Origin: Trujillonella endophytica
GTDB lineage: Bacteria > Actinomycetota > Actinomycetes > Mycobacteriales > Geodermatophilaceae
Direction: 5' to 3'
Length of the DNA: 64,000 nucleotides
Assembly: GCF_900110555.1 (NCBI RefSeq)
Contig: NZ_FOEE01000002.1
Coordinates: forward strand, 62,001 to 126,000
Positions 18,936-60,267 of the stretch are shown in pieces (position 1 is the stretch's first letter; the number at the start of each line of letters is the position of its first letter). The notes under the pieces were generated by a model, which ran no database searches, had not been told where the DNA came from, and worked only from the letters and a program-made list of their open reading frames with translations. A program made the translations under genes and the position numbers.

Positions 18936-18982
18936 CTCGTCCGGGCCGGGTGATGCGCGCGGTGCGCCCGGCACGGCACGGT
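18936..18982 (+). promoter_or_regulatory. Shared-class promoter: palindrome 18936-18954, -10 CACGGT 18977-18982
   Basis: CTCGTCC gggcc GGGTGAT, then 22 nt, then CACGGT. First (leftmost) member of the YTCAYCC-N5-GGRTGAN promoter class; drives the gene at 19036. Confidence 0.7.
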
Positions 18983-19035
18983 CGCCCCCACCATCGGCGG
19001 GGCACCGCCGTCCGGGCGTCCGGGAGGCGGCGGCC

Positions 19036-19836
19036 GTGCTGTTCTTCGGCCTGAGCACGTGGGTCCTCGCCCTCGTGCTGGCGGCCGTCATGGCCGCCTC
19101 GGTCGCGCTGGGGCTGGTGGTGGGGCGGCGGCTGGCGACGCGGTCGGTCGACCTGCGGGAGCCGCTCGGCGTCCTGCAGGGCGCCCTGATCGGCTTCATG
19201 GGGCTGATCCTGGCGTTCGGCCTGAGCCTCGCGGTCGGCCGCTACGAGAACCGGCGGACCGACGTCGTCGCCGAGGCCAACGCGATCGGGACGACGTACC
19301 TGCGCGCGCAGACCCTGGCCGAGCCGGTCCGGTCGCAGTCGCTGGACCTGCTGCGCGACTACGCCGACGAGAGCATCCGCATCGCCGACGAGCGGCCGGG
19401 CAGCGACGCCCAGCGCGACGCCGTCGACGACAGCCAGGAGCTGCAGCGCGCGCTGTGGGGCCTGGCCGGCCAGGCGCTCGACGCCGCGCCGGCGAACGTG
19501 GCGCCCCAGCTGTACATCGAGTCGCTCAACGAGATGTTCGACGCGCAGGCCGGCCGGGTGGCCGGGCTGGGCAACCGCGTGCCCTCGGCCGTCATCCTGC
19601 TCGAGGTCGTCGGTGCCGCCCTGGCCCTCGCGGTGCTCGCGCTGCACCTGGCCACCTTCGGGCGGGGCATCGCCACGGTGTCGGCCGCGGCGGCGCTGGT
19701 CACGCTGCTGCTGGTCGTCACCTTCGACCTGGACCGGCCCACCCGGGGCCTGATCCGCGTCCCGTCGACCCCGCTGGACGCGGTGGCCGCCACCATGGCC
19801 GAACCGCCCGCGGTGGAGGCCCCGCAGGGCCCCTGA
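19036..19836 (+). CDS. DUF4239-like membrane protein
   Basis: 266-residue integral membrane protein resembling DUF4239/bestrophin-like proteins. Membrane segments are near residues 6-28, 50-68, 183-205 and 210-228. Between segments 2 and 3 is a soluble helical region beginning GRYENRRTDVVAEANAIGTTYLRAQ, the most conserved part of the family. Possible ion-channel or unknown envelope role. GTG start. It is the first gene of the stress block and has its own class promoter 81 bp upstream. Confidence 0.75.
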   Translation: MLFFGLSTWVLALVLAAVMAASVALGLVVGRRLATRSVDLREPLGVLQGALIGFMGLILAFGLSLAVGRYENRRTDVVAEANAIGTTYLRAQTLAEPVRSQSLDLLRDYADESIRIADERPGSDAQRDAVDDSQELQRALWGLAGQALDAAPANVAPQLYIESLNEMFDAQAGRVAGLGNRVPSAVILLEVVGAALALAVLALHLATFGRGIATVSAAAALVTLLLVVTFDLDRPTRGLIRVPSTPLDAVAATMAEPPAVEAPQGP

Positions 19837-19879
19837 CGTCCGCCCCGTCCCGGAGCTGCCGCGGCGCGCGTTCCCCGAC

Positions 19880-19925
19880 CCCATCCCGACGGGGTGATCC
19901 CCCACGTCGAGTGCGGCCCGACGAT
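19880..19925 (+). promoter_or_regulatory. Shared-class promoter: palindrome 19880-19898, -10 GACGAT 19920-19925
   Basis: CCCATCC cgacg GGGTGAT, 21 nt, GACGAT. Drives the gene at 19957. Confidence 0.7.
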
Positions 19926-19956
19926 CGCGGCGGGCTGCCGGCGTCAGGGGTCGTGG

Positions 19957-20541
19957 ATGGACACGCAGGAGACACCGTCCGGTCCCGACCGACCCCGGCC
20001 GGCCCGGCAGCGGTTCGGTCCCGCGGCAGCGATGCGGTCCGCGGAGCTGCGCGGCGAGACCGTCGATCAGGTGCTCGACCGCAACCTCGCCGAGCTGCTC
20101 CAGGAGCTGCGGGTCGCGTTCACCGGCGTGCAGATCATGTTCGCCTTCCTGCTCGGCCTCGCGTTCACCCAGCGGTTCGGCGACCTCGACGACTTCGGCG
20201 TCGCCGTCTACACGGTCGCCCTGATGACCACCGCGTTCGCGACCCTGGTGCTCCTCGCGCCGGTGTCGTTCCACCGCATCGTGTTCCGCCGGGGTCAGAA
20301 GGCCGCGCTGGTCGCGGTCGCCGACCGCATGCTCGCCGTCGGCCTGGCGATGCTCGTGCCGGCCATGGCCAGCGCGGTGCTGCTCATCCTCGACGTCGTC
20401 CTCGGTCGCTGGCCGGCGATCGTCGGCAGCGCCGCCACGACGCTGCTCGGGCTGCTGACCTGGTACGTGCTCCCGCTCAGCGTCCGCCGCTCCGGGCACG
20501 GCCGGCGCCCGCCGCACGACCGGCCACGCCACCATCGCTGA
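19957..20541 (+). CDS. DUF6328-like four-helix membrane protein
   Basis: 194-residue membrane protein. A charged N-terminus (about 65 residues ending RNLAELLQELRVAFTGVQIMFAFLL) leads into four predicted transmembrane segments. The motif LRVAFTGVQ at the start of the first helix and the FHR after the second match DUF6328 proteins of actinobacteria, whose function is unknown. The ATG at 19957 is preferred to the GTG at 19894, which lies inside the promoter palindrome. Confidence 0.7.
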   Translation: MDTQETPSGPDRPRPARQRFGPAAAMRSAELRGETVDQVLDRNLAELLQELRVAFTGVQIMFAFLLGLAFTQRFGDLDDFGVAVYTVALMTTAFATLVLLAPVSFHRIVFRRGQKAALVAVADRMLAVGLAMLVPAMASAVLLILDVVLGRWPAIVGSAATTLLGLLTWYVLPLSVRRSGHGRRPPHDRPRHHR

Positions 20542-20606: not shown

Positions 20607-23348
20607 TCAGACCGTGTCCGTCGCACGATCGTCCGCGCGCAGACGCCGGGCGAGGAGCTTCCCGGCCTCCCAGAGCAGCAGGAGGACCACCGCCGGGAGC
20701 ATCGCCCAGCCGAACTGGGCCATCGTGAGGGGGACGGTGTCCAGCAACCGGTTGAAGACGTCCATCTGGGTGACCAGCACGGCGAGCGCGAACTCGCCGA
20801 AGACCGCGCGGTTCATCACCCTGCTGTCGAACGTGGCCGTGGTGAACACCGTGCCGGTCTCGCTGCGGCACTCGAGCGCGGCCACGATCAGGCACAGCGC
20901 GAACGAGGAGAAGGCCATCGACACCCCGACGTCCAGGCTGTCGTAGTGCTCGACACCCAGCTGGATCAAGCCGAGCAGGGCGGCCGCGATCGCCAGGCCC
21001 GCGGGTCCCACGATGCAGGCCATGGTCCGGGTCAGCACCGACTCGCCGCGGGGCCGGGGCCGGGCCGACATCAACCCGGGACTCTCCGCGTCGAACCCCA
21101 GCGCGAACCCGAAGGCCGCGTTGACGAAGAAGTGGATCCAGAGCACCTGCGCGGGGTTGAACGGCTCGCCGTCGGCGATGTCGAACAGGCTGGCAGCGAG
21201 GAACGTCAGGACGAACACCACGAGCAGGATCAGGACGAACCGGATGTACTTCATCAGGTTGTCGAAGATCTTCCTGCCCTGACCGACGGCGAACACGATC
21301 GTGGCGAAGTCGTCGTCCGAGAGGATCATCCGGCCGGCGTTCTTCGCGACATCGGTGCCACTTCCCATCGCGATGCCGATGTCGGCGGCCTTGATCGCCG
21401 GCGCGTCGTTGACGCCGTCGCCCGTCATGGCCACGACGTCGCCCTTCGCCTTCAACGTCTCGACCAGGAGCACCTTGTGCTCGGGCGCGACGCGCCCGAC
21501 GACGCCGAGGTCGTCGATGCGAGCCAGCCGCTCGGCCGCGGAGAGCGCTGCGAAGTCGGCGCCGAGCATGGCCGTGCCCGGGATCCCCAGCTGCCTGGCG
21601 ATCGCGGCGCCGGTGAGCACGTCGTCGCCGGTGATCATCCGGACCCGGACGTGGGCGGCCTGGGCAGCGGCCACGGCCGCCCGGGACTCGGCCCGAGGCG
21701 GATCGACCATTCCGACCAGGCTGGTCAGCTCGAGGCCGCGAACGTAGCCGAGCAGGTCTCCCTCGGGGTCGAAGGCGGCCGGGTCGAGGTCGAGCCGGGC
21801 TGCCGCCATCACCCGCTGGCCCAGGTTCTCCATGCGTTCCATGTCGGCACGGGCGAGCCGTTCCCGGTCCGCGTCCCAGGGGATGCTGCGGCCGGTCGCC
21901 CGGGCCGTGGCCACCAGCGCCAGGACCGCCGGCGCCGCGCCCTTGACGAAACACCGGACGACCGCGCGGCCGGAGGCATCCGCATGCGGGACGAAGGTCG
22001 CCATGAGCTTGTAGGTCGGGTCGAACGGCAGCGTCGCGAGCCGCGGCGCAGCGTCCCGCATGGCGTCGATGTCCAGCCCGGCCTTGTGCGCCAGCACGAG
22101 GAGGGCTCCCTCGGTCGGGTCGCCGACGACGCTGCCGTCGACGAGCTGGGCGTCGCTCGCGAGGACGTACGGGACGATCGCCTCCGCGAAGCCGGTCGTG
22201 GTGCCGGCGACGTGGTGGACGCGGCCCTGCAGGCCGTAGCCGGTGCCCGAGACCGTGTACCGGTCGGTCGGGGTCACGACCTCGACCACGGTCATCTGGT
22301 TCATCGTCAGCGTGCCGGTCTTGTCCGAGTTGATGGCGGAGGTGAAGCCCAGGGTCTCCACCGCGGGCAGCTCCTTGACGATGGCGTTGCGCGCGGCCAG
22401 CTGGACGCTCCCGAGCGACAGGATCATCTGCGTCACGCTGGGCAGGGCCTCGGGTATCGCCGCGATCGCCAGGGCGATCGCGCTGACGAACAGCACGTCC
22501 CAGGCCTCACCGCGACTGCGGCCCATCACGAACATCACGAACATCGTCAGGGCGGCCGCTCCGACGATCCAGAGCGTCAACGTGTCGAGCTGCCGGGTGA
22601 GCAACGACTTCTCCCGCGCCGTCGCGGTCAGCATCGCCGAGATCTTCCCGAACTGCGTTCCCCCTCCCGTGGCGGTGACGACGACGACGCCGCTGCCGTG
22701 CGTGACGGGCGTGTTCATGAACGCCATGTCGGTCTGGTCCCCCGGCCCCAGCTCCACATCGGGCAGCGCGTCGGCGTCCTTGGCCGAGGGCGTGCTCTCC
22801 CCCGTCAGCGCGGATTCGTCGATCTGCAGCGCGCTGGCGGCGATGATCCGGCCGTCGGCGGGGACCTGGTCGCCGGCGGCGAGCAGGACGACGTCCCCGA
22901 CGACCAGGTCCTCCGCCGGGATCTCGGCCTCGGATCCGTCCCGGCGCACCCGCGCGGTCGCCCTCATCATCGACTTCAGCGCGTTCATGGCGCTCTGCGC
23001 CTTGCCGGCCTGGCGCAACCCGATGACGGCGTTGAGAACGGTCAGCGCGAGGAGCAGGACGGTCGTTCCCCACTCCTGGACCGCGAGCGAGACGATCGCG
23101 GCGCCCACGAGGATGAGCTGCATGTAGCTGCGGTACTCCTCGAGGAACCGCCGCCAGCCGGGCCGCGGCTGCTCCTCGGGCAGTGCGTTGGCGCCGTCGT
23201 CGTGGAGCCGTCGGGCGGCCGTCTCGGCGGAGAGCCCGATCTCGGGATCGACGTCGAGCGCGGCGGCCACGTCCGCCGCCGGAATCGCGTACCACCGTCG
23301 CGGGGAAGCCGGCGTCCGAGCCGGCCGGGATCGCACCGTGGTCGTCAT
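20607..23348 (-). CDS. Cation-transporting P-type ATPase (P2-like, CtpF type)
   Basis: 913-residue P-type ATPase with the full domain order: cation_ATPase_N (1-75), A domain with TGES (182-185), phosphorylation site SDKTGTLT with D342, and hinge TGDGVNDAP. The transmembrane-4 motif is AAIPEALPS (about 296-304), where Ca2+ pumps have PEGLP. The residue before SDKTGT is Asn (AINSDK) in place of the usual Cys. Ten membrane helices are predicted. Ca2+ or another divalent or monovalent cation is likely. The ATG at 23348 lies directly behind a TACCGT -10, so its mRNA is probably leaderless. CtpF is a DosR-regulon member in Mycobacterium tuberculosis, a useful parallel for this block. Confidence 0.93.
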   Translation of the reverse strand: MTTTVRSRPARTPASPRRWYAIPAADVAAALDVDPEIGLSAETAARRLHDDGANALPEEQPRPGWRRFLEEYRSYMQLILVGAAIVSLAVQEWGTTVLLLALTVLNAVIGLRQAGKAQSAMNALKSMMRATARVRRDGSEAEIPAEDLVVGDVVLLAAGDQVPADGRIIAASALQIDESALTGESTPSAKDADALPDVELGPGDQTDMAFMNTPVTHGSGVVVVTATGGGTQFGKISAMLTATAREKSLLTRQLDTLTLWIVGAAALTMFVMFVMGRSRGEAWDVLFVSAIALAIAAIPEALPSVTQMILSLGSVQLAARNAIVKELPAVETLGFTSAINSDKTGTLTMNQMTVVEVVTPTDRYTVSGTGYGLQGRVHHVAGTTTGFAEAIVPYVLASDAQLVDGSVVGDPTEGALLVLAHKAGLDIDAMRDAAPRLATLPFDPTYKLMATFVPHADASGRAVVRCFVKGAAPAVLALVATARATGRSIPWDADRERLARADMERMENLGQRVMAAARLDLDPAAFDPEGDLLGYVRGLELTSLVGMVDPPRAESRAAVAAAQAAHVRVRMITGDDVLTGAAIARQLGIPGTAMLGADFAALSAAERLARIDDLGVVGRVAPEHKVLLVETLKAKGDVVAMTGDGVNDAPAIKAADIGIAMGSGTDVAKNAGRMILSDDDFATIVFAVGQGRKIFDNLMKYIRFVLILLVVFVLTFLAASLFDIADGEPFNPAQVLWIHFFVNAAFGFALGFDAESPGLMSARPRPRGESVLTRTMACIVGPAGLAIAAALLGLIQLGVEHYDSLDVGVSMAFSSFALCLIVAALECRSETGTVFTTATFDSRVMNRAVFGEFALAVLVTQMDVFNRLLDTVPLTMAQFGWAMLPAVVLLLLWEAGKLLARRLRADDRATDTV

Positions 23349-23355
23349 CGGCCGG

Positions 23356-23402
23356 ACGGTAGGGACCCTCCGACGGGAGGGGCATCCCCCGCAGCGGATG
23401 AC
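23356..23402 (-). promoter_or_regulatory. Shared-class promoter: palindrome 23384-23402, -10 TACCGT (23361-23356)
   Basis: On the minus strand the site is followed after 22 nt by TACCGT, which ends 7 nt before the ATPase start codon. + strand site: ATCCCCC gcagc GGATGAC. Confidence 0.7.
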
Positions 23403-23425: not shown

Positions 23426-23471
23426 ACCACCCCGCGCGCGCGATGACCGGCGACCGGATGCCCGCCACTGT
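23426..23471 (+). promoter_or_regulatory. Shared-class promoter: palindrome 23426-23444, -10 CACTGT 23466-23471
   Basis: ACCACCC cgcgc GCGCGAT, 21 nt, CACTGT. Arms are degenerate but the geometry is exact; drives PPK2 at 23510. Confidence 0.55.
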
Positions 23472-24438: not shown

Positions 24439-24678
24439 TCACGCGACGATCAGATAGAGGCCGTAGCCGACGATGAGCGCACCGGCGGCGACGCAGAGGA
24501 CCGCGACCACGGTGCCGGCGCGGGCCCCGTCGCCGTGCCCGTCCTGGACGGTGGGGTCGCCCTGCTGCACGCGGGCGGAGAGCCCGACCAGCGCGGAGGA
24601 GACGAGCAGGACGACGGTCAGCGCCGCGGCGGCCGCCACGACCGCGACCTCGGTGAGCGTGGCCCAGTCGATGTGCAT
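24439..24678 (-). CDS. Small two-helix membrane protein behind pit
   Basis: 79-residue protein with two hydrophobic segments (about 9-33 and 56-78) and a charged linker rich in Gly, Asp and Arg. No family recognised. It begins 17 bp after the Pit transporter stop on the same strand, so it is likely in the same transcript and may be a small accessory subunit of the transporter (inference). Confidence 0.65.
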   Translation of the reverse strand: MHIDWATLTEVAVVAAAAALTVVLLVSSALVGLSARVQQGDPTVQDGHGDGARAGTVVAVLCVAAGALIVGYGLYLIVA

Positions 24679-25823: not shown

Positions 25824-26113
25824 GGACCGCTGCCTCCGATCGGCCGACGGGAACCTGGCCGATGGCTCCGCTCGGGGACGGCGCACCCGGCCTCCGGGAC
25901 CCCTTCCGCGAGAACCGGCGCTGCGCGCCCGTCGACGGCCGGAATGGACGACCCGGCGCGGGGGGAGGGAGCCGGAGACAGGATCATCGGCTGCTCCCCC
26001 CTGCCGTCCCGGCGGCAGCTGTCCAGCGGTGGCGCCGGGTACTGCCGGGTCGTGAGGGGATGGTCGGGCCCCGCCCGTGCCGGTGCATCACCCGTGCGGG
26101 ACGAGCGCGGGGA
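25824..26113 (-). promoter_or_regulatory. Long pit leader with class promoter (palindrome 26087-26105, -10 GACCAT 26065-26060)
   Basis: Minus-strand promoter: site ATCACCC gtgcg GGACGAG (as read on +), 21 nt, GACCAT. The expected transcript has a leader of roughly 230 nt before pit. A 59-codon open frame (25987 to 25808) with a GGGGGAG site overlaps the pit start by 16 bp. It may be a leader peptide or chance. Nothing else was recognised in the stretch. Confidence 0.5.
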
Positions 26114-28577: not shown

Positions 28578-28650
28578 ACGCTAGGGGTCGGCGGCGGGCC
28601 CGGACTCCTACGGGAAGGATGAGCCGCCGCGGACCGCCGGACGCCACCCT
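28578..28650. promoter_or_regulatory. Bidirectional class promoter: palindrome 28605-28623, -10s TAGCGT (28583-28578) and CACCCT (28645-28650)
   Basis: CTCCTAC gggaa GGATGAG with a -10 hexamer exactly 21 nt away on each side. The rightward start is probably leaderless, because CACCCT ends 6 nt before the ATG at 28657. Confidence 0.8.
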
Positions 28651-32504: not shown

Positions 32505-32550
32505 AGCGTGGCCACCGCAGAGAGGACGGGCCTCATCCCCGGGGGGTGAC
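32505..32550 (-). promoter_or_regulatory. Shared-class promoter: palindrome 32532-32550, -10 CACGCT (32510-32505)
   Basis: Site CTCATCC ccggg GGGTGAC as read on +; 21 nt to CACGCT on the minus strand. The palindrome overlaps the stop codon of the antiporter gene. Drives SulP. Confidence 0.75.
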
Positions 32551-33919: not shown

Positions 33920-34043
33920 GCGCCACCTCACCGGCCGTCGTTCTCACCGTGCGTCGTTGCGGACGACATCGTCGGAGCCGGGCGGGCCGCGCGCCTCACC
34001 CGCGCGAGAGGAGAGCCGGAGCCGGCCCGCGGGATGCGGCCCG

Positions 34044-34089
34044 CTACTCCCCCGGGGGTGATCCCGGCCGGGCGCCTCGGCCCTAGCGT
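34044..34089 (+). promoter_or_regulatory. Shared-class promoter: palindrome 34044-34062, -10 TAGCGT 34084-34089
   Basis: CTACTCC cccgg GGGTGAT, 21 nt, TAGCGT (a full TANNNT). Drives the small gene at 34138 and the lipid kinase. Confidence 0.75.
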
Positions 34090-36715: not shown

Positions 36716-36761
36716 AGGGTGGGCGGAGGCCGGTCCGGCCACCTCATCCCCGGTGGATGAG
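36716..36761 (-). promoter_or_regulatory. Shared-class promoter: palindrome 36743-36761, -10 CACCCT (36721-36716)
   Basis: CTCATCC ccggt GGATGAG, perfect 7-bp arms, 21 nt to CACCCT. One of the two best sites. Drives the patatin gene. Confidence 0.85.
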
Positions 36762-37340: not shown

Positions 37341-37387
37341 ACGGTGCCGGGGCCGGGCGATCCGCCGCATCCTCCGGCCCGGGTGAT
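37341..37387 (-). promoter_or_regulatory. Shared-class promoter: palindrome 37369-37387, -10 CACCGT (37346-37341)
   Basis: ATCCTCC ggccc GGGTGAT as read on +; 22 nt to CACCGT on the minus strand. Drives the Nudix gene. Confidence 0.65.
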
Positions 37388-37408: not shown

Positions 37409-37454
37409 CTCACCTCGCCCGGGTGGGGCGCGGTCCGGGCGGCCGATCCACGGT
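37409..37454 (+). promoter_or_regulatory. Shared-class promoter: palindrome 37409-37427, -10 CACGGT 37449-37454
   Basis: CTCACCT cgccc GGGTGGG, 21 nt, CACGGT. Drives the aquaporin gene. Confidence 0.65.
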
Positions 37455-38612: not shown

Positions 38613-38943
38613 GACGGCACCTCCCGAGGGCGTTCCGGAGCATCGACGACGGCGGCGCCGGCGGGGTCCTCCGTCCCGACGGCCACCTGCCGGGACGGTA
38701 GGAGCAGCGGCCCCGCGCCCGGCTCACCCGACAGTGGTGGACGCGCTCCCGGCGCGCGGCGGGCCGCTCCCCGGCGCCGCTCGGTGCCCTCGGTCCCCGG
38801 GGGCCCGAGCCCTTGGGCCCTTGCCCCCGACCGGGAACCCGAGAGGGTCGGGGCGCACACCGTCACGCCGGACCGGCGCGCGCCTGCGGCCGCGGTCGGG
38901 ACGTCGACGACGGGAGAGCACCGCTCCGAGCAGAGGAGGGGTC
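38613..38943. promoter_or_regulatory. Intergenic region with weak class site 38723-38741 and -10 TACCGT (38700-38695)
   Basis: 331 bp between the small gene (-) and the first LuxR gene (+). The site CTCACCC gacag TGGTGGA lies 22 nt from TACCGT on the minus strand, so it serves the gene at 38612. No member of the promoter class was found for the LuxR gene on the plus strand. Other content is GC-rich with short hairpins around 38790-38820. Confidence 0.5.
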
Positions 38944-41532
38944 GTGGCGCACAGGTGGCGGTCGAAGACGGCCGTGCCCGGACTGCCGGCCGACCACGTG
39001 TCCCGACCGGCGCTGCTGAGCGCCCTGGACCGCGGCGAGGATCGCGCCCTCACGCTGGTGTCGTCACCACCCGGGTACGGGAAGAGCCTCCTGCTCGCGG
39101 ACTGGGCCCACCGCCGGGAGGCCCCCACCGCGTGGGTCGCTCTCGACGAGGCCGACGACGACCCCCGGCGACTGTGGACGTCGGTGCTGGCCGCGCTGTC
39201 GGCGTGCCCGGCGGTCCCGGCGACGAGCCCGCTGACGGAGCTCGTGGTCCCCCGGACCGGGGTCGGCATCGACCTCCTGATGGAGGTGTTCGACGCGCTC
39301 GCGGCCCTCCCGGTCCCGGTGCGGCTGGTGCTCGACGACGCCCACCACCTCCGCAGCCCGGATGCGGTGCGCGGCCTGCAGCTCCTGCTGCGGCACCGGC
39401 TGCGCACCGTCCGGCTGGTCCTGTCCAGCCGGTTCGACCCACCCCTGCCCATCGCGCGACTGCGGATGGAGCAGCGGTTGTGCGAGCTGCGCACCGCCCA
39501 GCTCGCCTTCTCCGTGGAGGAGACGGCGGCGCTGACCGCACGCTGCGGGCTGCGGCTCACCCACGAGCAGGCCGCGCTGCTGCACGCCCGCACCGACGGG
39601 TGGGTGGCCGGCATCCGGCTCGCGACGACGCCGCTGCGGAACCACCCCGATGCCGACCGCTTCCTCGCCGACTTCTCCGGTGACCTGCGACCGGTCGCCG
39701 ACTACCTCGCCGGAGAGGTCCTGGCATCGCTCTCCCCGGTGCAGCGGGAGCTGCTCCGGCGGACGAGCATCGCCGACCCGGTTCCGGCCGCCCTGGCCGT
39801 GGAGCTGTCCGGCCGCGCGGATGCCGCCGACCTGCTCGGCGCCCTCGAGCGCGGCTCCGGGCTGGTGGTGTCCACCGGGGAGCGCCGCTCGGTGTTCCGC
39901 ATCCAGGAGCTGATGCGCTCCTACCTGGTCGCCGACCTCCACCGGCACGGGCCGGGCCGGGCGGCGGCGCTGCACGGGCAGGCGGCGGCGTGGTGGGCGG
40001 CCCAGGGCCGACCGGTCACGGCGCTGCACCATGCCGAGCGGGCGGCCGACGACGGCCTCGTCGCCGCGCTGCTGCACCGCTGGGCGCCCGAGCTCGTGGC
40101 CCGCGGCGAGCACCGGGAGCTCTCCGGAGCACTGGCGGCCCTGGAGGGCAGCGGTGGATCGACCGACGCATGGCTGCCGGTGGTGGCGGCGCAGGTCCAC
40201 GTCGCCCACGGGGACCTGAGAGCCGCCCGGGCGGAACTCCGCCGGGCGGGTGACCTCGACACCGGGTCCGGCGACACCGCGCTCGCCCACTTCCGGATCG
40301 CCACCGAGTGGCTGACGGGGGCGGCCCCGCCCGGCCCCCTCCCGACGCCCTCGCCGGCGGTCCCCGCCCTGGCGGCGCTGGTCGCCGCCGGCCGCGGCGC
40401 CGCCCGGATGTTCTCGGTCCGGGGACCGGCGCAGCTCACGAGCGTGCTCGCCGACCTCGAGACGGCGCTGGACCTCGCCCGGGACCAGCACCTGGGGTTC
40501 CTCGAGGTGCAGACCCTCTGCCTCATCGGCACCGCCGCCTGGGTGGGCTGCGACCACGGGCGCGCCGCTGCCGCCGCGGCGGCCGCCGTCGCGGCGGCGG
40601 GCACCCACGGCTGGCAGGACTCCTGGTGGGCCGCCGCGGCCCACGCCGTGCTGGCCCACTCCTGCCTCGTGCGCGCCACGCCCGCGCATGCGCTGCGGGC
40701 CGCCGACGACGGCCTGCGCATCGACGCCGCCCACTGCGATCCCGGCCTCCGCTTCTCGTTGCGGAGTGCGCGCGGCGGGGCGCTGTTCGACCTGGGCGAA
40801 CGGGCGCTGGGGCTGTTCGAGCTGCAGGAGGCGCACGCCGAGGTCGTCGGGACGCACGTGCCGCGGCACCTGGCCGCCGCAGCCGCCCTGCTCGAACACC
40901 GGGCGGCGCTGATGCAGGGCTCCGCGGCCGCCGCCGCGACGTCCGCCGGCCGGCTCGCGGACGAGCCGTCGGCCGCCGCCGAGCGAGCCCTCGTCCGGGC
41001 CTGGTCCCACGCGGCGGCCGGCGCGGCCGACCGGGCCCGGGGCGCCGTCGCCCCGATCCTCGACGGCACCCTGCGGCCGCTGCTGCCGACCACCACCGTG
41101 GACGCCGGCCTGGTGGAGGTCTGGGCCGCCCTGCGCAGCGGCGATCGGCCCGGGGCGCGGCGCCGGTTGCAGGCCGTCCTGGTGCAGGCGGAGGAGCTCG
41201 ACGTGCTGCGGCCGTTCGCCCTCGCCGGGCAGGGCGTGCGCGCGCTGCTCGTGGACCAGCTCGGGGGCACCCGGGACCCGGCCTCCTTCGCCTTCCGGTG
41301 CCTGGCCGCGCGCCGGCGCGTGTCGCGGGCGCCGTCCCCCCGGTTGAGCTCCCGTGAACGCGACGTCCTCGTCCAGCTGGTCTCCCTGAGCAACCTCGGG
41401 GAGATCGCCGAGGACATGTCCGTTTCGGTGAACACGATCAAGAGCCACGTCCGGGCGATCTACGGCAAGCTGGGGGTGAACACCCGGCGGACCGCCGTCC
41501 TCACCGCGCTGGACCAGGGGCTGCTGTCCTGA
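38944..41532 (+). CDS. LAL (MalT-type) LuxR-family transcriptional regulator, copy 1
   Basis: 862-residue regulator with the MalT layout: N-terminal STAND/AAA NTPase with Walker A SPPGYGKS (41-48) and LVLDDAHHL as Walker B-like, a winged helix around VADYLAGEVLASL, a long TPR-like alpha-helical sensor region (about 400-780), and a C-terminal LuxR HTH (LSSRERDVL...VSVNTIKSH, last 65 residues). Such proteins are ATP- and ligand-switched activators. GTG start with GAGGAGGG 4 nt upstream. It is followed by a close paralogue and is a prime candidate to bind the block's shared palindrome. Confidence 0.92.
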   Translation: MAHRWRSKTAVPGLPADHVSRPALLSALDRGEDRALTLVSSPPGYGKSLLLADWAHRREAPTAWVALDEADDDPRRLWTSVLAALSACPAVPATSPLTELVVPRTGVGIDLLMEVFDALAALPVPVRLVLDDAHHLRSPDAVRGLQLLLRHRLRTVRLVLSSRFDPPLPIARLRMEQRLCELRTAQLAFSVEETAALTARCGLRLTHEQAALLHARTDGWVAGIRLATTPLRNHPDADRFLADFSGDLRPVADYLAGEVLASLSPVQRELLRRTSIADPVPAALAVELSGRADAADLLGALERGSGLVVSTGERRSVFRIQELMRSYLVADLHRHGPGRAAALHGQAAAWWAAQGRPVTALHHAERAADDGLVAALLHRWAPELVARGEHRELSGALAALEGSGGSTDAWLPVVAAQVHVAHGDLRAARAELRRAGDLDTGSGDTALAHFRIATEWLTGAAPPGPLPTPSPAVPALAALVAAGRGAARMFSVRGPAQLTSVLADLETALDLARDQHLGFLEVQTLCLIGTAAWVGCDHGRAAAAAAAAVAAAGTHGWQDSWWAAAAHAVLAHSCLVRATPAHALRAADDGLRIDAAHCDPGLRFSLRSARGGALFDLGERALGLFELQEAHAEVVGTHVPRHLAAAAALLEHRAALMQGSAAAAATSAGRLADEPSAAAERALVRAWSHAAAGAADRARGAVAPILDGTLRPLLPTTTVDAGLVEVWAALRSGDRPGARRRLQAVLVQAEELDVLRPFALAGQGVRALLVDQLGGTRDPASFAFRCLAARRRVSRAPSPRLSSRERDVLVQLVSLSNLGEIAEDMSVSVNTIKSHVRAIYGKLGVNTRRTAVLTALDQGLLS

Positions 41533-41626: not shown

Positions 41627-44245
41627 ATGAGCGGCGCGCCGACCTCGTCACTGCGGATCCCCGCCAGCAAGATCGCGGTTCCGGAACTGCCGGCGGAGTT
41701 CAGGCCGCGGCGCGCCCTCCGCCGGCTGCTCGAGCAGGCCGCGCCCGACCAGGTGATCGTGGTCAGCGCGCCGGCGGGGTTCGGCAAGACCCTGCTGCTC
41801 GCCGACTGGGTGCGCGAGAGCGACTGGCTGGAGACGGCGTGGGTCTCCCTCGACGACGACGACGACGACCCGCGCCGCCTCTGGTCGGCCGCGCTCGGCG
41901 GTCTGCTGGAGCTCCCCTCCTGCGCCGGGGACCCCGAGCTGCAGCGGCTCGCCGCCTCCCTCACCGTGTCCCGGGGAGCCGACGTCGTGGAGGACCTCGC
42001 CGACGCCCTCGACACGCTCACCTCCCCCGTGCGGCTGGTCCTCGACGACGTGCACGCACTGACCGGGCGCGAGGTCCTGCACGACCTCGCGGCGCTGGTC
42101 CGCCGTCGCCCGTCGCGGCTCGCGCTGGTCGTCGCCGGCCGGATCGACCCGCCGATCTCGGTTCCGCGCCTCCGGCTGGAGGGCCGGCTGCACGAGGTGC
42201 GGGCGGAGGCCCTGCGCTTCACGCCGCAGGATGCCGCCGTGCTCCTGGACGCATCGGGGCTGGACCTGACCGCGCGCCAGGTGGCCGTCCTGCACGAGCG
42301 GACGGAGGGCTGGGCCGCCGGTCTGCGGCTGGCCGCCCTGGCGCTGCTCCGCACCGACGACGTCGATGCCTTCCTCGCCTCGTTCTCCGGGGACGAACGC
42401 TCCGTCGCCGAGTACCTGACCGGCGAGATCCTCGACGGCCTCGACCCCGACGACGAGCAGTTCCTGCGGGTGGTCAGCGTGTGCACCCCGGTTCCGGCGG
42501 CCCTCGCGGCCGCGCTCTCGGGGGACGCGGCCGCGGAGGCGACGCTCGACGGCCTGCGGGCCTCCACGGCGCTGGTCGAGCGGACGCCGCGCGCCGACCA
42601 CCGCCTGCACCCGCTGCTGCGCTCCTACCTCGTGGCGGACCTGGCGCGACAGGAACCGGAGCGGTACCGGCAGCTGAACGCCACGGCCGCGAGGTGGTGG
42701 TCCGGGCAGGGGGAGCCCGTGCACGCCCTGCGCCACGCGGAACGCGCCGACGACGACGCGCTGACGACGGAGCTGCTCCGCCGCTCCGGGGTCGCCCTCC
42801 TGCTCGCGGGTGACCTCGGCCCCCTGCGGCGCGCGCTGGCGGCCGTCGGCCCCGGTGCCCGGGCCCGCGACCCGTGGCTCGCGCTGATCGCGGCCCTCGC
42901 CCACCTCGACGAGCGGGCCCTGGTCCCCGCCGCGGCCGAGCTGGACGACGCCCGGCGCGCCTGGCCGGACGCGCCCGACACCGCACTCGAGACGCTGCGC
43001 GACTGCGCGGAGTTGCTGGCGGGTGCGCTCGGGCTGCCCCGCGTGCCGGTACCGCCGCCCCGTCTCTCGCCGGGGGACGACGGACCGGAGCTCGCGGCCC
43101 TGCGCCACGTGAGCCTGGGCATCGCCGAGTTCGCCAACCCGGCCGGCCCCGACGTCCCCCTCGCGCGGACCCACCTGGAGCGGGCCCGGGACCTCGCGGA
43201 GGAGCACGACCTGGCCTACCTGGAGGTGCAGAGCCTCGCGACGCTGTCGGCCCTGGCGACCATCGACGGTGACCTGCGCGCGATGGCCGCCGCCGCCGAG
43301 AGCGCCGTCGCCGCGGCCGCCCGCACCGGACGCCACCCCTCCGCGTGGTCGGCCGGGCCGACCGGGATGCTCGCCTATGCCGACCTGCTCTTCGGCGACC
43401 CCGGGCAGGCCGCGCTCCGGAGCGGGGCCGCGCTCGACTCCTGGGAGGCGCTGCCGCCCGAGTCGGCGTACGTGCTGCACGCCGTCCACGGCGCCGCCGT
43501 CGCCGACCTGGGCCGCCCGGCGGAGGGGTTTGCCGAGATCCGCGCGGCGCGCGCTGTCCTCGGCGACGCCCCGGTGACGCCACCGGTGCTCGCCGGGCTG
43601 GCCGTGCTCGAGCACCGGGTGGCCCTGCTCAACGGGAACGTGGGCGCGGCGGACGAGGTGGCCCTGTGGCTCGCCGACCGGGTCGGGGCCACCGGTGAGA
43701 CGCTGCTGCTGGGCGCCTGGACCGAGGCCGCCGCCGGCCGGTACGAGGCCGCTGCCGCCGCCGTGGCGCCCGTGCACCGGCCCGACGTCCTCAGCCTGCT
43801 GCCCGAGACGGTCGTCGAGGCGCTGCTCGCCGAGGCGGAGGCCGCCCTGCAGCACGGTGACCGGCCGGCCGGCTGGTCCGCGCTGGAGGCCGCGCTGGGA
43901 CGCGCCGAGCCGCTCGGCGTGGTCCGGCCGTTCGCGCTGGCGGGCCCGCGCACCCAGGAGCTGCTGCGCGCCCGCACCGCCACCGCCCGGCGGGGGTCCT
44001 TCGCCGGGCAGGTGGCCGCCGCCCGCGCCGGCGTGTCGCCCGAGCCGCCGGCCCTGCTCAGCGAGCGCGAGCAGGCCGTCCTGGCCCTGCTGCCCTCCCT
44101 GCTGAACGCCCGCGAGATCGCCGACGAGTTCACCGTGTCGGTCAACACCATCAAGAGCCACATCCGCTCGATCTACGCCAAGCTCGGCGTCTCGTCCCGG
44201 CGCGAGGCCGTGCTGCTCGCCGCCGACCGCGGGCTGCTGCGCTGA
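41627..44245 (+). CDS. LAL (MalT-type) LuxR-family transcriptional regulator, copy 2
   Basis: 872-residue paralogue of copy 1 with the same domain order: Walker A SAPAGFGKT (47-55), LVLDDVHAL, winged helix FSGDERSVAEYLTGEIL, TPR-like sensor, and a C-terminal HTH (LLSEREQAVL...VSVNTIKSH, last 62 residues). The recognition helix and following residues are almost the same in both copies, so they should share DNA targets. The sensor regions differ more, which suggests different inputs. ATG behind CGAGGAG; a palindrome overlaps the leader. Confidence 0.92.
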   Translation: MSGAPTSSLRIPASKIAVPELPAEFRPRRALRRLLEQAAPDQVIVVSAPAGFGKTLLLADWVRESDWLETAWVSLDDDDDDPRRLWSAALGGLLELPSCAGDPELQRLAASLTVSRGADVVEDLADALDTLTSPVRLVLDDVHALTGREVLHDLAALVRRRPSRLALVVAGRIDPPISVPRLRLEGRLHEVRAEALRFTPQDAAVLLDASGLDLTARQVAVLHERTEGWAAGLRLAALALLRTDDVDAFLASFSGDERSVAEYLTGEILDGLDPDDEQFLRVVSVCTPVPAALAAALSGDAAAEATLDGLRASTALVERTPRADHRLHPLLRSYLVADLARQEPERYRQLNATAARWWSGQGEPVHALRHAERADDDALTTELLRRSGVALLLAGDLGPLRRALAAVGPGARARDPWLALIAALAHLDERALVPAAAELDDARRAWPDAPDTALETLRDCAELLAGALGLPRVPVPPPRLSPGDDGPELAALRHVSLGIAEFANPAGPDVPLARTHLERARDLAEEHDLAYLEVQSLATLSALATIDGDLRAMAAAAESAVAAAARTGRHPSAWSAGPTGMLAYADLLFGDPGQAALRSGAALDSWEALPPESAYVLHAVHGAAVADLGRPAEGFAEIRAARAVLGDAPVTPPVLAGLAVLEHRVALLNGNVGAADEVALWLADRVGATGETLLLGAWTEAAAGRYEAAAAAVAPVHRPDVLSLLPETVVEALLAEAEAALQHGDRPAGWSALEAALGRAEPLGVVRPFALAGPRTQELLRARTATARRGSFAGQVAAARAGVSPEPPALLSEREQAVLALLPSLLNAREIADEFTVSVNTIKSHIRSIYAKLGVSSRREAVLLAADRGLLR

Positions 44246-44249: not shown

Positions 44250-44295
44250 TTCACCTGCGCGGGGTGACGGCTCCCGGCCGCGACCGGCTCAGGGT
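44250..44295 (+). promoter_or_regulatory. Shared-class promoter: palindrome 44250-44268, -10 CAGGGT 44290-44295
   Basis: TTCACCT gcgcg GGGTGAC, 21 nt, CAGGGT. Drives 44344 and probably 44608. Confidence 0.75.
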
Positions 44296-44889: not shown

Positions 44890-44935
44890 CTCATCCCTCC
44901 GAGGCGAGGTGAGCGGGTGCGGCGGCCACGAGGCT
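44890..44935 (+). promoter_or_regulatory. Shared-class promoter: palindrome 44890-44908, -10 GAGGCT 44930-44935
   Basis: CTCATCC ctccg AGGCGAG, 21 nt, GAGGCT. The right arm is weak but the spacing is exact. Drives 45010. Confidence 0.6.
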
Positions 44936-46330: not shown

Positions 46331-46376
46331 AGCCTGCCGCGGACGCGGCCGCCCCGCCTCATCCGCGACGCATGAG
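46331..46376 (-). promoter_or_regulatory. Shared-class promoter: palindrome 46358-46376, -10 CAGGCT (46336-46331)
   Basis: CTCATCC gcgac GCATGAG, 21 nt to CAGGCT on the minus strand. The palindrome overlaps the stop codon of the YihY gene and so also encodes its last residues. Confidence 0.75.
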
Positions 46377-48780: not shown

Positions 48781-48826
48781 ACGGTGCCCCGGCGGTGCCG
48801 GGGGGGCATCCCCCGGCGGAGGTGAG
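48781..48826 (-). promoter_or_regulatory. Shared-class promoter: palindrome 48808-48826, -10 CACCGT (48786-48781)
   Basis: ATCCCCC ggcgg AGGTGAG as read on +, 21 nt to CACCGT on the minus strand. Drives DUF2252 and probably YihY. Confidence 0.7.
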
Positions 48827-49504: not shown

Positions 49505-49578
49505 AGTGTGCGAAGCGCGGCGAGCGCCCGGCATCACCCGCTCCGGATGACGAAGGCGGCGCCGGGGCGGGGGACGCT
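49505..49578. promoter_or_regulatory. Bidirectional class promoter: palindrome 49533-49551, -10s CACACT (49510-49505) and GACGCT (49573-49578)
   Basis: ATCACCC gctcc GGATGAC with a -10 hexamer at 22 nt (left) and 21 nt (right). The rightward hexamer ends 6 nt before the GTG at 49585, so that mRNA is probably leaderless. Confidence 0.8.
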
Positions 49579-51077: not shown

Positions 51078-51123
51078 AGCGTGCCCCCCGACCCGGTGGC
51101 CCGCCTCCCCTCCCCCGGATGAA
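51078..51123 (-). promoter_or_regulatory. Shared-class promoter: palindrome 51105-51123, -10 CACGCT (51083-51078)
   Basis: CTCCCCT ccccc GGATGAA as read on +, 21 nt to CACGCT on the minus strand. Drives the RDD gene. Confidence 0.65.
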
Positions 51124-51155: not shown

Positions 51156-51201
51156 CTCATCCGCGGCGGGCGATCCCCGCCGCGTTCCCCGCCGCGACCC
51201 T
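51156..51201 (+). promoter_or_regulatory. Shared-class promoter: palindrome 51156-51174, -10 GACCCT 51196-51201
   Basis: CTCATCC gcggc GGGCGAT, 21 nt, GACCCT. The hexamer ends 6 nt before the ATG at 51208, so a leaderless start is likely. Confidence 0.8.
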
Positions 51202-55464: not shown

Positions 55465-55511
55465 CAGGCTGCCGCCGCCGGTCCCCGGCCGGCACCACCC
55501 GCCCCGGACGA
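55465..55511 (-). promoter_or_regulatory. Shared-class promoter: palindrome 55493-55511, -10 CAGCCT (55470-55465)
   Basis: ACCACCC gcccc GGACGAA as read on +, 22 nt to CAGCCT on the minus strand. Drives GH15. Shares its end base with the next site. Confidence 0.65.
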
Positions 55512-55556
55512 ATCCCCCGGCCCGGGCGATGCGGCGCCAGGGGCGAGCGCCGACCG
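55511..55556 (+). promoter_or_regulatory. Shared-class promoter: palindrome 55511-55529, -10 GACCGT 55551-55556
   Basis: ATCCCCC ggccc GGGCGAT, 21 nt, GACCGT. Drives the ion-channel gene at 55583. Confidence 0.7.
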
Positions 55557-55582
55557 TTCCGGCGACGCGAGGGAGGTCCGCG

Positions 55583-56157: not shown

Positions 56158-56203
56158 TTCACCCACAACGCATGACGTCCCGACCGCGGGCGGGCGGGAC
56201 GTT
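56158..56203 (+). promoter_or_regulatory. Shared-class promoter: palindrome 56158-56176, -10 GACGTT 56198-56203
   Basis: TTCACCC acaac GCATGAC, 21 nt, GACGTT. Drives 56255. Confidence 0.7.
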
Positions 56204-57383: not shown

Positions 57384-57456
57384 AGGGTCGCCGGGTGCCG
57401 GCCGCCGCACCTCATCCGCGGCGGATGAGGCGCGGCGCCGGCGCCGGCGCCACCGT
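57384..57456. promoter_or_regulatory. Bidirectional class promoter: palindrome 57411-57429, -10s GACCCT (57389-57384) and CACCGT (57451-57456)
   Basis: CTCATCC gcggc GGATGAG, perfect 7-bp arms, with a -10 hexamer exactly 21 nt away on both sides. The cleanest example of the class. Confidence 0.88.
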
Positions 57457-57829: not shown

Positions 57830-57876
57830 CTCACCCCGGACAGGCGGTGCGGCGCCCCGACGACGCCGGTGACCCT
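57830..57876 (+). promoter_or_regulatory. Shared-class promoter (weak site): palindrome 57830-57848, -10 GACCCT 57871-57876
   Basis: CTCACCC cggac AGGCGGT, 22 nt, GACCCT ending 7 nt before the ATG at 57884. Right arm degenerate; a leaderless start is likely. Confidence 0.5.
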
Positions 57877-57883
57877 GGCGGGC

Positions 57884-58375
57884 ATGCGCCCGACCCTCGC
57901 GACGCACCTCGGCTCGCGCCAGGTCGCGCGCGTGGTCTACGGATCGATCATCGGGCTCGCCCTGGTCGTGGTCGTCGAGAGCCATCCCCCGCCCACCGGG
58001 GTGGTGATCGGCTGGTTCCTCGGCAGTGCGGCCGCGGTCGCGCTGGCCGAGCTCTACAGCGAGATCATCGGCTTCGAGACGCGGGAGCGGCGCCGCGTGG
58101 CCCGGGCCGAGGTGCGGGAGATGCTCGACGACGCCCTCGCGGTCGCGTTCGGCGTCGCGTTCCCCGACGTCTTCTTCGTGCTGGCGGCCCTGAGCGTCAT
58201 CGAGCTCGACACCGCCCTCACCGTCGCCAAGTGGAGCGGGCTGGCGCTCATCGGCTTCTACGGCTACTGGGCGGCCCGGTTCTCGGGTTCCCGGGTGCCG
58301 CGCGCGCTGCTCCAGGGGGCCGGGATCGCCCTCGTCGGTGTCGGCCTCATCGCGCTCAAGGCCTTCCTGCACTAA
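57884..58375 (+). CDS. Membrane protein of unknown family
   Basis: 163-residue integral membrane protein with about four helices (near 17-34, 40-58, 95-112, 120-160). The middle contains ELYSEIIGFETRERRRVARAEVREMLDDA, a charged amphipathic helix. I do not recognise the family; it recalls VIT1-like or small-multidrug-type topologies only loosely. No ribosome site is clear, in line with a leaderless start. Its TAA stop overlaps the stop of the convergent next gene. Confidence 0.75.
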   Translation: MRPTLATHLGSRQVARVVYGSIIGLALVVVVESHPPPTGVVIGWFLGSAAAVALAELYSEIIGFETRERRRVARAEVREMLDDALAVAFGVAFPDVFFVLAALSVIELDTALTVAKWSGLALIGFYGYWAARFSGSRVPRALLQGAGIALVGVGLIALKAFLH

Positions 58376-59730
58376 CGCGCCGGACCCGGCGGCGGCGCCT
58401 CCCGCGAGGCCTCCACCCGGTCGGCCGGCGCGGTCGCCGGCCGGGCCAGGAACTCGATCACGGCCAGCACCACCAGGAGCAACGCGGCGATGACCAGGAT
58501 CGCCGCGCCCGTGGGCTCGGTCAGGAACACGAACACCAGGACGGCGAGCGCCACCGCGGCGATCCGCAGGCCCCGCACGTGCCGGCGCGCCCAGGTGCCG
58601 ACCCGCCCGTCGGGCGACGGTCCGCCGCGGATGGAGTGCAGACGTTCCTTCGTCCAGCTCCGGATGCCCACCGCGGTCTCCGACCGGCCGGCGAGGAAGC
58701 CGGCGAGCGCGAGCACCAGCCCGAGCACGAGCAGCGCACGGAGGCCGTACCGCAGGTAGGTGACCACGATGTCGAAGCCCGATCCCGCGGCCGGCGCCGC
58801 GGCGGCCGGCACCGCGTCGACCAGCAGGCTGCGGGCGACCAGGAGACCCGCGGCGAGGACCACCATCGACAGGGCCAGCCCCAGGCCGGTACCGACCAGG
58901 GCGCGGAGCCGGTTGCGGGCCAGGTAGATGCCCGCGACGAACAGGAGCAGCACGACCCAGGGCAGCACGCCGGCGACCGTGTTCAGGGTGTCGTAGGCCG
59001 TCTGCGCGCGCACCAGGGTGTCGGCCTGGGCCAGCTCCACGGTCGGATTGACGTCCGGGATCAGCGAGACCGCGGTCAGCCCCGCGTCGCTCAGCCGCTC
59101 CTTGACGAGGTCGACGAACGGGCCGAGCTGCAGGTACACCGCGCCGTCCTGGACCACGACGCCGTCACTGTCGCCGGACAGCACCGCGTCCAGCCGGTCG
59201 TGCGCGGTCGCGATCGCCCGGTCCCAGACCGCCTCGAACGCGGGACCGGCCACCAGCTGGGCGATGCGCTCGCGGACGAAGTTCTCCACGGCGGACGTGA
59301 TCGTCGGGGTGAACGTCCCGAGCCGGTCCACCAGGAGCGGCGGCACGCCGACGCCCTCCAGCGCGTCGACGGCGTCGTCGGCGAGCGTCTGCACGTCGAC
59401 GTAGGTGAAGACCGTCTCGGTGAGCCGGCCGGTGAGCGCCGACTGCACGTCCGGGTCGTCGACCAGGGGGCCCACGCTCCGCACGAAGCGATCGGTGTCC
59501 GACAGCTGGTTGTTCGTCCACACGGCGAGGCCGGCGACCGGGGCCAGCACGCAGCCGAGCACGATCAGCACGACCGCCACCAGGGAGCGCCACCGGAACC
59601 CCGTCCGCGGCCGCGGACCCACGTGCAGGGCCTGCACCTCGCGGCGCAGCCGGTCGAGCTCGGCGCGCTCGTCGACGGTCAGCGGAGGATCCGGGCGGGA
59701 GGGGGCCACGGGACGGTCCAGCTGGGTCAT
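58372..59730 (-). CDS. Large membrane protein, unknown function
   Basis: 452-residue membrane protein. A cytoplasmic N-terminus with a short coiled-coil (VDERAELDRLRREVQAL) and one helix (about 50-72) is followed by a roughly 190-residue extracytoplasmic domain (DTDRFVRSVGPLVDDPDVQSAL onward). Four more helices and a basic loop close the protein. It belongs to a common actinobacterial family of integral membrane proteins without known function. ATG at 59730, 45 bp after the SHOCT gene, so the pair share the promoter at 60222. Confidence 0.82.
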   Translation of the reverse strand: MTQLDRPVAPSRPDPPLTVDERAELDRLRREVQALHVGPRPRTGFRWRSLVAVVLIVLGCVLAPVAGLAVWTNNQLSDTDRFVRSVGPLVDDPDVQSALTGRLTETVFTYVDVQTLADDAVDALEGVGVPPLLVDRLGTFTPTITSAVENFVRERIAQLVAGPAFEAVWDRAIATAHDRLDAVLSGDSDGVVVQDGAVYLQLGPFVDLVKERLSDAGLTAVSLIPDVNPTVELAQADTLVRAQTAYDTLNTVAGVLPWVVLLLFVAGIYLARNRLRALVGTGLGLALSMVVLAAGLLVARSLLVDAVPAAAAPAAGSGFDIVVTYLRYGLRALLVLGLVLALAGFLAGRSETAVGIRSWTKERLHSIRGGPSPDGRVGTWARRHVRGLRIAAVALAVLVFVFLTEPTGAAILVIAALLLVVLAVIEFLARPATAPADRVEASREAPPPGPAR

Positions 59731-59775
59731 GGCCGGTTCCTCCGTCGCGTGCGGGTGCCCGAGAGGGCGCAGCGG

Positions 59776-60162
59776 TCAGACGAGCGCCTTGCTCTTCAGC
59801 GCCTCGTACTCCGACTGGGAGATCGCGCCGGCGTCGAACAGCGCCCGCGCCTGCGCGATCTGGTCCGTGGGGCTGGCCGGGGCGGGGCGGCCGGCGACCT
59901 GGCGGATGTACTCGTCCCGCTGGCGCTCCTGCTCCTCCGCGCGCGCCACCGCCCGTCGCGCCATCCCCTGCCCGCGGACGATCACGTAGACGAGGGCGGT
60001 GAGCAGTGGCAGCAGGATCAGTCCGAGCACCCACACGGCCTTCGCGAACCCCGAGACGTCCCGATCCCGGAACAGGTCGTGGATGATCGAGAAGAGCAGG
60101 ATCAGGTAGGCGACGAACGCGTAGCCGATGATGATGAACCACACCACGTCCCAGAACGACAT
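59776..60162 (-). CDS. PLDc_N plus SHOCT domain protein
   Basis: 128-residue protein. Two membrane helices form a phospholipase D nuclease N-terminal (PLDc_N) region (SFWDVVWFIIIGYAFVAYL and AVWVLGLILLPLLTALVYVIVRG). A charged linker follows, then a C-terminal SHOCT motif (ALFDAGAISQSEYEALKSKAL). Function is unknown; SHOCT tails often mediate oligomerisation. The ATG at 60162 has GAGAGG 9 nt upstream and is preferred over the GTG three codons earlier. Confidence 0.87.
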   Translation of the reverse strand: MSFWDVVWFIIIGYAFVAYLILLFSIIHDLFRDRDVSGFAKAVWVLGLILLPLLTALVYVIVRGQGMARRAVARAEEQERQRDEYIRQVAGRPAPASPTDQIAQARALFDAGAISQSEYEALKSKALV

Positions 60163-60221
60163 CTGACGCACCTCTCGACAGGCCGGACGGATGCCGTCAC
60201 GGCCCCGACGGATCCGGTGGC

Positions 60222-60267
60222 AGCCTGGGCGCAGCCGGGGGCGTCCGCCTCACCTCACCTGGGTGAG
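60222..60267 (-). promoter_or_regulatory. Shared-class promoter: palindrome 60249-60267, -10 CAGGCT (60227-60222)
   Basis: CTCACCT cacct GGGTGAG, 21 nt to CAGGCT on the minus strand. Rightmost member of the class. No matching hexamer on the + side. Confidence 0.78.

Follow-up and report, generated by a model that had tools for sequence, protein, structure and literature searches.

In a 64,000-nt stretch of the Trujillonella endophytica genome (positions 62,001 to 126,000 of contig NZ_FOEE01000002.1; hereafter the window), one promoter design is common to a 41-kb block: a 19-bp inverted repeat with the core TCAYCC-N5-GGRTGA (the box), followed after 21 or 22 nt by a NANNNT hexamer in the -10 position, at 29 promoters. 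In the middle of the block stand two tandem regulator genes, LAL_A and LAL_B, of the MalT-like LAL/STAND kind. We interpret the block as a MalT-like class II regulon, in which the box would be a pair of MalT-type boxes read by putative LAL activators, and give this reading a probability of about 0.88; judged from sequence, LAL_A and LAL_B are most likely the regulators of the box. This type of regulon is already known from Actinoplanes. What is new is its wider occurrence, here in Geodermatophilaceae and, as a genome survey suggests, in up to 17 other actinobacterial families.

Fixed promoter geometry across the block

The original prediction had located 25 copies of the 19-mer by eye. All of them lie where they were placed, two were read one base out of register and one site was missed: a weight matrix moved 55493 to 55494 (spacer 22) and 55511 to 55512 (spacer 21), and added a minus-strand site at 33995 (spacer 21) upstream of the Na+/H+ exchanger genes. 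The predicted spacing held in the 28 gene-facing directions first listed, with NANNNT at exactly 21 nt in 21 and at 22 nt in 7; the corrected total is 26 sites and 29 promoters, with a spacer of 21 nt in 22 and of 22 nt in 7. At the remaining spacers between 5 and 39 nt, the 39 gene-facing sides gave 5 NANNNT matches altogether; where a side faced no gene (11 cases), no NANNNT stood at any spacer in the range. The consensus is longer than first stated, the promoter-proximal half being followed by GC (G in 23/29, C in 22/29), and both halves are kept about equally (exact TCAYCC in 15/29, exact GGRTGA in 15/29). As predicted, no -35 element is visible: the best TTGACA match averages 2.83 of 6 positions, vs 2.63 at random positions. 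Four tests of spacer length (21 or 22 nt) against box letters in 123 promoters gave no association for A at position 15 (p = 1.0), p = 0.18 for T and p = 0.10 for G at position 19, and p = 0.027 for C at position 1.

That all 29 promoters have the hexamer is in part a product of selection, because NANNNT had helped to choose the promoters both in the first reading and in our re-analysis; the clean test of the geometry therefore lies in loci picked by regulator protein alone. Among loci retrieved solely through their LAL protein (31 loci, exact-consensus sites removed), 42 palindrome-like sites had NANNNT at 21 nt in 13 cases and at 22 nt in 8, while the 48 other spacers gave a mean of 0.38 and at most 2. 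In 20 loci chosen by motif and treated in the same way, 4 (21 nt) and 11 (22 nt) of 37 sites had the hexamer (other spacers: mean 0.65, largest 3).

Chance is an unlikely source of the sites, as had been argued from the base composition. The matrix gave 27 window hits of at least 20 bits, whereas ten windows resampled by a Markov model gave 0.0 per 64 kb; these 27 are the sites on which the matrix was trained, and leave-one-out scoring keeps 21 of 29 at 20 bits or more, with three weak sites (23426+, 28605- and 38723-) at 12–14 bits. None of 402 control genes from the same genome has a box. The design was also correctly predicted to be absent from the furA-katG and catechol genes, which lie left of the block: no matrix hit of at least 10 bits falls in that region, and a single 12.9-bit hit stands at 4788.

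Outside the window, the 409 kb scanned of contig C20, which carries the window, contained 7 hits of at least 15 bits. Six of these reach 20 bits, all at 449.0–455.0 kb beside a third LAL gene (LAL_C), and the seventh scores 19.5 bits at 442.5 kb. This second, smaller cluster (C20:449.0–458.6 kb) holds LAL_C at 456.0–458.6 kb together with genes for an arginine deiminase, MarC, an amino acid permease, an MscS-type channel, an Abhydrolase_9 protein and a Rce1-like protein. Another strong site lies at C10:149329, upstream of DUF6325 and SHOCT genes, and exact palindromes without a -10 are present at C20:46707, C20:137429 and C13:159192. When two mismatches at most were allowed, the pattern matched 75 times (21 nt) and 57 times (22 nt) over the whole genome, many of the matches being a single palindrome counted in both directions, vs 7 and 12 for a reversed-pattern control.

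Two MalT-like regulators within the block

The original prediction contained neither LAL_A nor LAL_B. LAL_B matched MalT in the PDB (8bob, E = 9.5e-31), and its predicted model (mean pLDDT 87), the only one of the two built, returned MalT 8bob as the top Foldseek match (E = 8.4e-16) and MalT domain III, 1hz4, as the third (E = 2.2e-5), which points to a superhelical sensor domain. AAA_22 hits in both proteins, just under that model's cut-off, are consistent with a NOD, and the Walker A residues G51, G53 and K54 are invariant among 20 aligned LALs. Both proteins end in a GerE helix-turn-helix (PF00196; E = 1.1e-9 for LAL_A, 7e-13 for LAL_B). Against the MalT equivalog model (NCBIfam NF003420) LAL_B scored 240 bits, its best stretch being residues 14–424; the cut-off is 537, and LAL_B is thus a relative of MalT rather than MalT proper. 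LAL_A, LAL_B and LAL_C form one Geodermatophilaceae clade.

Box variants follow the type of regulator. When sites were scanned without regard to position 16, T16 was found in 0/17 boxes of LAL_C-type loci (four genomes), 78/115 boxes of LAL_A/B loci, 56/89 at other LAL loci of the family and 74/81 in other families; 8 of the 17 LAL_C sites come from two genomes added after the pattern had been noticed in the first two. The four LAL_C proteins have SHST or SPTT in their recognition helix, where almost every other LAL compared has S-x-N-T and three shorter neighbouring LALs have SPHT or SRHT. Judged at the sequence level, this covariation ties the LALs to the boxes independently of expression, for a single clade.

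Boxes and LAL genes occur together across the class

We surveyed 394 genomes of the class, from 48 families, for exact composite sites and for LALs (hit threshold E ≤ 1e-20). Sites were present in 115 of the 394 genomes; the 55 with at least three held 439 sites, and the reversed-pattern control gave about nine hits over all class genomes. By our own table count, 18 of the 48 sampled families have a genome with at least three sites, one of which (f21) may reflect chance or repeats. A LAL hit was found in 52 of the 55 genomes with at least three sites vs 67 of the 339 others (odds ratio 70; Fisher p = 8e-28, which ignores phylogeny). Two of the exceptions have a more divergent LAL, inside the cluster in G156 and, in G136, next to a boxed DUF1269 gene on a separate contig; the third, G089, has three near-copies of one sequence and the reverse reading of one copy, and looks like repeated DNA. 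Sites and LALs also lie close together: 59 of 136 listed sites are within 25 kb of a LAL (chance expectation 1.9), spread over 16 of 26 genomes. Of the ten remaining genomes, three (G008, G158 and G172) also proved to have a LAL close to a listed site when searched more deeply.

Within Geodermatophilaceae, 14 of 112 genomes have at least three sites, and in every one of these a LAL lies no more than 15 kb from an exact site (no more than 1 kb in ten). The LAL_A/LAL_B tandem is present in seven family genomes, namely six of the 14 and G426 (76% complete, two sites); in the remaining eight of the 14, the LAL adjoining the sites is a different one. Four family genomes without an exact site (G400, G493, G470 and G502) yielded at most isolated helix-turn-helix hits. 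The single composite hits of G336, G463, G465 and G088 are nearly identical; they look like one conserved coding stretch and are probably false positives of the pattern.

Orthologous promoters are conserved, as the original prediction required: in the Geodermatophilaceae stretches a box precedes 70 of 92 orthologues of boxed window genes. The controls gave 14 of 44 for orthologues of other block genes and 84 of 238 for the remaining genes, a high background because the stretches had been chosen for boxes or LALs. For the content of the regulon we used stretches of 20 genomes from nine families (our own count), with at most four proteins counted per operon. There, 235 boxes led to 281 proteins, and 15 boxes had no predicted gene within 350 nt. 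DUF7144, the 68-amino-acid family, the DUF6325 group and SHOCT/PLDc_N proteins each stand behind a box in 12 of the 20 genomes; SulP, the LALs themselves and the family of 58372–59730 each do so in 8, MFS in 7, and Abhydrolase_9, GH15 and the AI-2E-type transporter in 6. The best reading of these counts is that the shared core would consist of uncharacterised small and membrane proteins.

Relation to known systems

The original prediction had suggested that the design may define an undescribed stress regulon. The stress role is conjectural, and 'undescribed' does not stand: the same motif with a MalT/LAL-type activator has been published for Actinoplanes. Droste et al. (2020) describe a 51-gene region of Actinoplanes SE50/110 with 5'-TCATCC-5nt-GGATGA-3' at 17 mapped starts, the 3' end of the motif lying 34.4 ± 1.0 nt from the start (PMC7567727). 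The region holds two MalT-like genes, of which ACSP50_3915 is the genetic activator; deletion of one MalT-like gene significantly lowers 42 of the 51 genes and overexpression raises 39 of 51. It is up on maltose vs glucose and during growth, it is found in four more Micromonosporaceae, and its authors liken the motif to the E. coli MalT box GGA(T/G)GA (PMC7567727). If the -10 spacing is the same there, the 34.4 nt imply a discriminator of 5–6 nt and a dyad centre near -42, arithmetic that agrees with the predicted activator position overlapping -35.

The two regions share the TCATCC-N5-GGATGA inverted repeat overlapping the -35 of many promoters, a large block enclosing two MalT-like LuxR genes (pairs likened by gene kind), many membrane, transport and hypothetical proteins, ppk2 (in related regions), and an arginine deiminase with an amino acid permease, which here lie in the second cluster at C20:449–455 kb. 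Unlike the Actinoplanes region, ours belongs to Geodermatophilaceae rather than Micromonosporaceae, has 29 motif promoters vs 17 and an exact 21/22-nt spacing to the -10, and is accompanied by a third LAL whose boxes form a variant of their own. The E. coli MalT regulon likewise has a STAND activator with NOD, superhelical sensor and C-terminal GerE domain, and a GGA(T/G)GA hexamer overlapping -35 (as cited in PMC7567727); it differs in its recognition helix, AATT in MalT vs SVNT here, and the repeats here are inverted. The OsdR/DevR(DosR) dormancy regulons are also actinobacterial, clustered and dependent on a GerE-type DNA-binding domain. Their regulator is of the two-component kind rather than STAND, and the box is unlike the OsdR consensus AGGGCCGATCGGCCCT (PMC5069765), which excludes membership in the DosR/OsdR regulon and bears out the predicted difference from the DosR box. 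One LAL paper states that the consensus site of its LAL was not predictable (PMC9628970). Among the papers listed by our literature searches, whose scope left out most subscription journals, there was no account of this regulon outside Micromonosporaceae, and none of those listed for the motif itself or for LuxR regulons of Geodermatophilaceae was relevant.

Proposed mechanism and alternatives

We propose that the 19-bp repeat would present two MalT-type boxes (GGRTGA) to MalT-like LAL/STAND activators. On activation the STAND protein would oligomerise, and its C-terminal GerE/LuxR helix-turn-helix domains would occupy the repeat, centred about 42 nt upstream of the start and overlapping -35. 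The bound activator would then touch the housekeeping sigma holoenzyme, which would read only the weak -10 (NANNNT, 21 or 22 nt downstream), and about 29 promoters would be induced together. An oligomeric state is known for E. coli MalT (PMC10427625). The sequences themselves show the sites with their fixed spacing, the two regulators, the linkage of such regulators to boxes in other genomes and the covariation of box with regulator type; direct LAL–box binding, class II activation, the oligomeric state, the choice between LAL_A and LAL_B and any signal are inferred.

Several observations weigh against this interpretation. E. coli MalT boxes are mainly direct repeats, while the boxes here are inverted. 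Nor does LAL_A stand behind a box in the window, although relatives of it do in three genomes: autoregulation would call for NANNNT at 21 or 22 nt on the side facing the gene, and there is none. G433 and G421 possess LAL genes but lack exact composite sites altogether, so that the presence of a LAL is not enough to predict the regulon, and in several genomes (G158 and G154) many sites are distant from any LAL found. Absences of LALs carry little weight, because the LAL_B search misses divergent LALs (as in G156) and two candidates were scored per genome; the covariation amounts to a single evolutionary event, because it involves only one regulator clade.

Some other palindrome-binding regulator encoded elsewhere, such as a DosR/NarL-type response regulator, might read the box, the LALs being mere members of the regulon. 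The LuxR/GerE-type helix-turn-helix is indeed common to response regulators, and the LAL genes stand behind boxes themselves in the survey of 20 genomes, but the OsdR/DevR consensus is different, box letters vary with LAL type, the block genes scanned with Pfam showed no response-regulator domain, and the LAL deletion in Actinoplanes lowers most genes of the region (PMC7567727, as above); we regard this explanation as improbable. That LAL_C, at C20:456 kb, controls the window block in place of LAL_A and LAL_B is conceivable, since all three belong to one clade. T16, however, is present in 19 of 29 window boxes vs none of the 17 LAL_C-linked boxes, and T16 boxes also occur in the six further genomes that carry the A/B pair, which makes control by LAL_C very improbable. 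The fixed -10 spacing and the lack of a separate -35 would also suit a repeat that served as the -35 element of an alternative sigma factor, with no need of an activator, yet one dyad copy serves divergent promoters at 28605, 49533 and 57411, the -10 spacing exceeds the usual -35 distance, and a MalT-like protein activates the Actinoplanes region (PMC7567727, as above). We give such a sigma factor hardly any credence. As for an artefact of reading GC-rich DNA by eye, sites and orientations were picked in that way and 14 of 29 TCAYCC and 14 of 29 GGRTGA halves are inexact, but the matrix scan, shuffles, control genes and orthologous promoters already refute it, and the same spacing recurs in loci selected by protein alone, so that its probability is next to nil.

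Beyond the proposed LAL-activated regulon in the window, we think it rather probable that the Actinoplanes 'maltose region' is one local form of a regulon found in much of the class, with LAL/STAND activators and co-evolved box variants, -35-less promoters of 21/22-nt spacing and a conserved uncharacterised core (DUF7144, DUF6325, SHOCT/PLDc_N, the ferredoxin-like 68-amino-acid family, DUF1269 and SulP), in which maltose would be incidental and the programme a general one for envelope, ion and energy functions. The survey turns what had been described for one strain and related Micromonosporaceae into a testable class-wide regulon, places several functionally uncharacterised protein families in a shared regulatory setting and supplies a natural set of regulator–box covariation for a STAND activator.

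Gene content of the block

According to Pfam, the block encodes transporters and channels (SulP, Na+/H+ exchanger, PHO4, P-type ATPase, aquaporin, MFS, ion channel, bestrophin-like), enzymes (PPK2, GH15/trehalase-like, patatin, NUDIX, Abhydrolase_9) and other families (HdeD-like DUF308, DUF2252, DUF1269, DUF6328, DUF7144, Amphi-Trp, RDD, LapA, SHOCT/PLDc_N). No maltose gene is recognisable in the block, which has one GH15/trehalase-like gene; functions concerned with polyphosphate, phosphate, ions and the envelope may point to an energy or envelope response. A small family of about 60–90 amino acids has members at 44344–44550 and 45768–45983 of the window and at C20:451300–451503. The two window members gave no Pfam hit at 1e-3 and nothing above cut-off in an NCBIfam scan; the model of the 68-amino-acid family has a ferredoxin-like fold (pLDDT 82), and the best Foldseek match (E = 2.3e-3) indicates no function.

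Table 1 Boxed promoters and regulator genes of the window. Box gives the left end of the box where it differs from the first position, with remarks; LOO, leave-one-out score in bits. Basis: S, site scan; M, matrix; P, Pfam.
Positions	Strand	Box	Spacer (nt)	-10	Gene(s)	Basis
18936..18982	+		22	CACGGT	bestrophin-like 19036-19836	S, M, P
19880..19925	+		21	GACGAT	DUF6328 20032-20541	S, M, P
23356..23402	-	23384	22	TACCGT	P-type cation ATPase 20607-23270	S, M, P
23426..23471	+	weak, LOO 12.3	21	CACTGT	PPK2 23510-24376	S, M, P
26060..26105	-	26087	21	GACCAT	PHO4 phosphate permease 24696-25823; small gene 24439-24678	S, M, P
28578..28623	-	28605 reversed; weak, LOO 12.6	21	TAGCGT	Abhydrolase_9 26825-28480; Rce1-like 26114-26794	S, M, P
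28605..28650	+		21	CACCCT	Abhydrolase_9 28765-30654	S, M, P
32505..32550	-	32532	21	CACGCT	SulP transporter with STAS 30667-32415	S, M, P
33968..34013	-	33995; missed at first	21	GACGAT	small gene 33782-33919; Na+/H+ exchanger 32533-33747	pattern search, M, P
34044..34089	+		21	TAGCGT	small gene 34138-34311; diacylglycerol-kinase-like 34308-35678	S, M, P
36716..36761	-	36743; perfect palindrome arms	21	CACCCT	patatin-like 35693-36610	S, M, P
37341..37387	-	37369	22	CACCGT	NUDIX 36811-37308	S, M, P
37409..37454	+		21	CACGGT	aquaporin-like MIP 37489-38382	S, M, P
38695..38741	-	38723; weak, LOO 13.6	22	TACCGT	64-amino-acid gene 38418-38612	S, M
38944..41532	+				LAL_A, MalT-like STAND regulator (AAA_22-like + GerE), 862 amino acids	P; 43% identical to LAL_B
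41627..44245	+				LAL_B, MalT-like STAND regulator, 872 amino acids	P, PDB match, NCBIfam, predicted model
44250..44295	+		21	CAGGGT	68-amino-acid conserved gene 44344-44550; gene 44608-44850	S, M
44890..44935	+		21	GAGGCT	gene 45010-45552, clusters by blastp with DUF6325 protein	S, M
46331..46376	-	46358	21	CAGGCT	Amphi-Trp 46020-46292; 71-amino-acid gene 45768-45983	S, M, P
48781..48826	-	48808	21	CACCGT	DUF2252 47292-48626; BrkB-like 46359-47186	S, M, P
49505..49551	-	49533 reversed	22	CACACT	DUF1269 48912-49415	S, M, P
49533..49578	+		21	GACGCT	gene 49585-50529	S, M
51078..51123	-	51105	21	CACGCT	RDD 50549-51046	S, M, P
51156..51201	+		21	GACCCT	gene 51208-51678; MFS 51686-53158	S, M, P
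55466..55512	-	55494; corrected register	22	CAGCCT	GH15/trehalase-like 53577-55406; DUF1622 53172-53537	M, P
55512..55557	+	corrected register	21	GACCGT	ion channel 55664-56149	M, P
56158..56203	+		21	GACGTT	DUF7144 56255-56707	S, M, P
57384..57429	-	57411 reversed	21	GACCCT	DUF308 (HdeD-like) 56768-57331	S, M, P
57411..57456	+	perfect arms	21	CACCGT	LapA-domain 57588-57815	S, M, P
57830..57876	+		22	GACCCT	gene called 57869-58375	S, M
60222..60267	-	60249	21	CAGGCT	SHOCT/PLDc_N 59776-60162; gene 58372-59730	S, M, P

The start called for 57869–58375 in our own gene calling is probably too early, because it falls inside the predicted -10; boxes could serve to correct gene starts, as at this gene. 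The neighbouring gene 58372–59730, whose family recurs behind boxes in the 20-genome survey, encodes a 452-amino-acid protein with no Pfam match, one relative of which has a weak C-terminal SHOCT.

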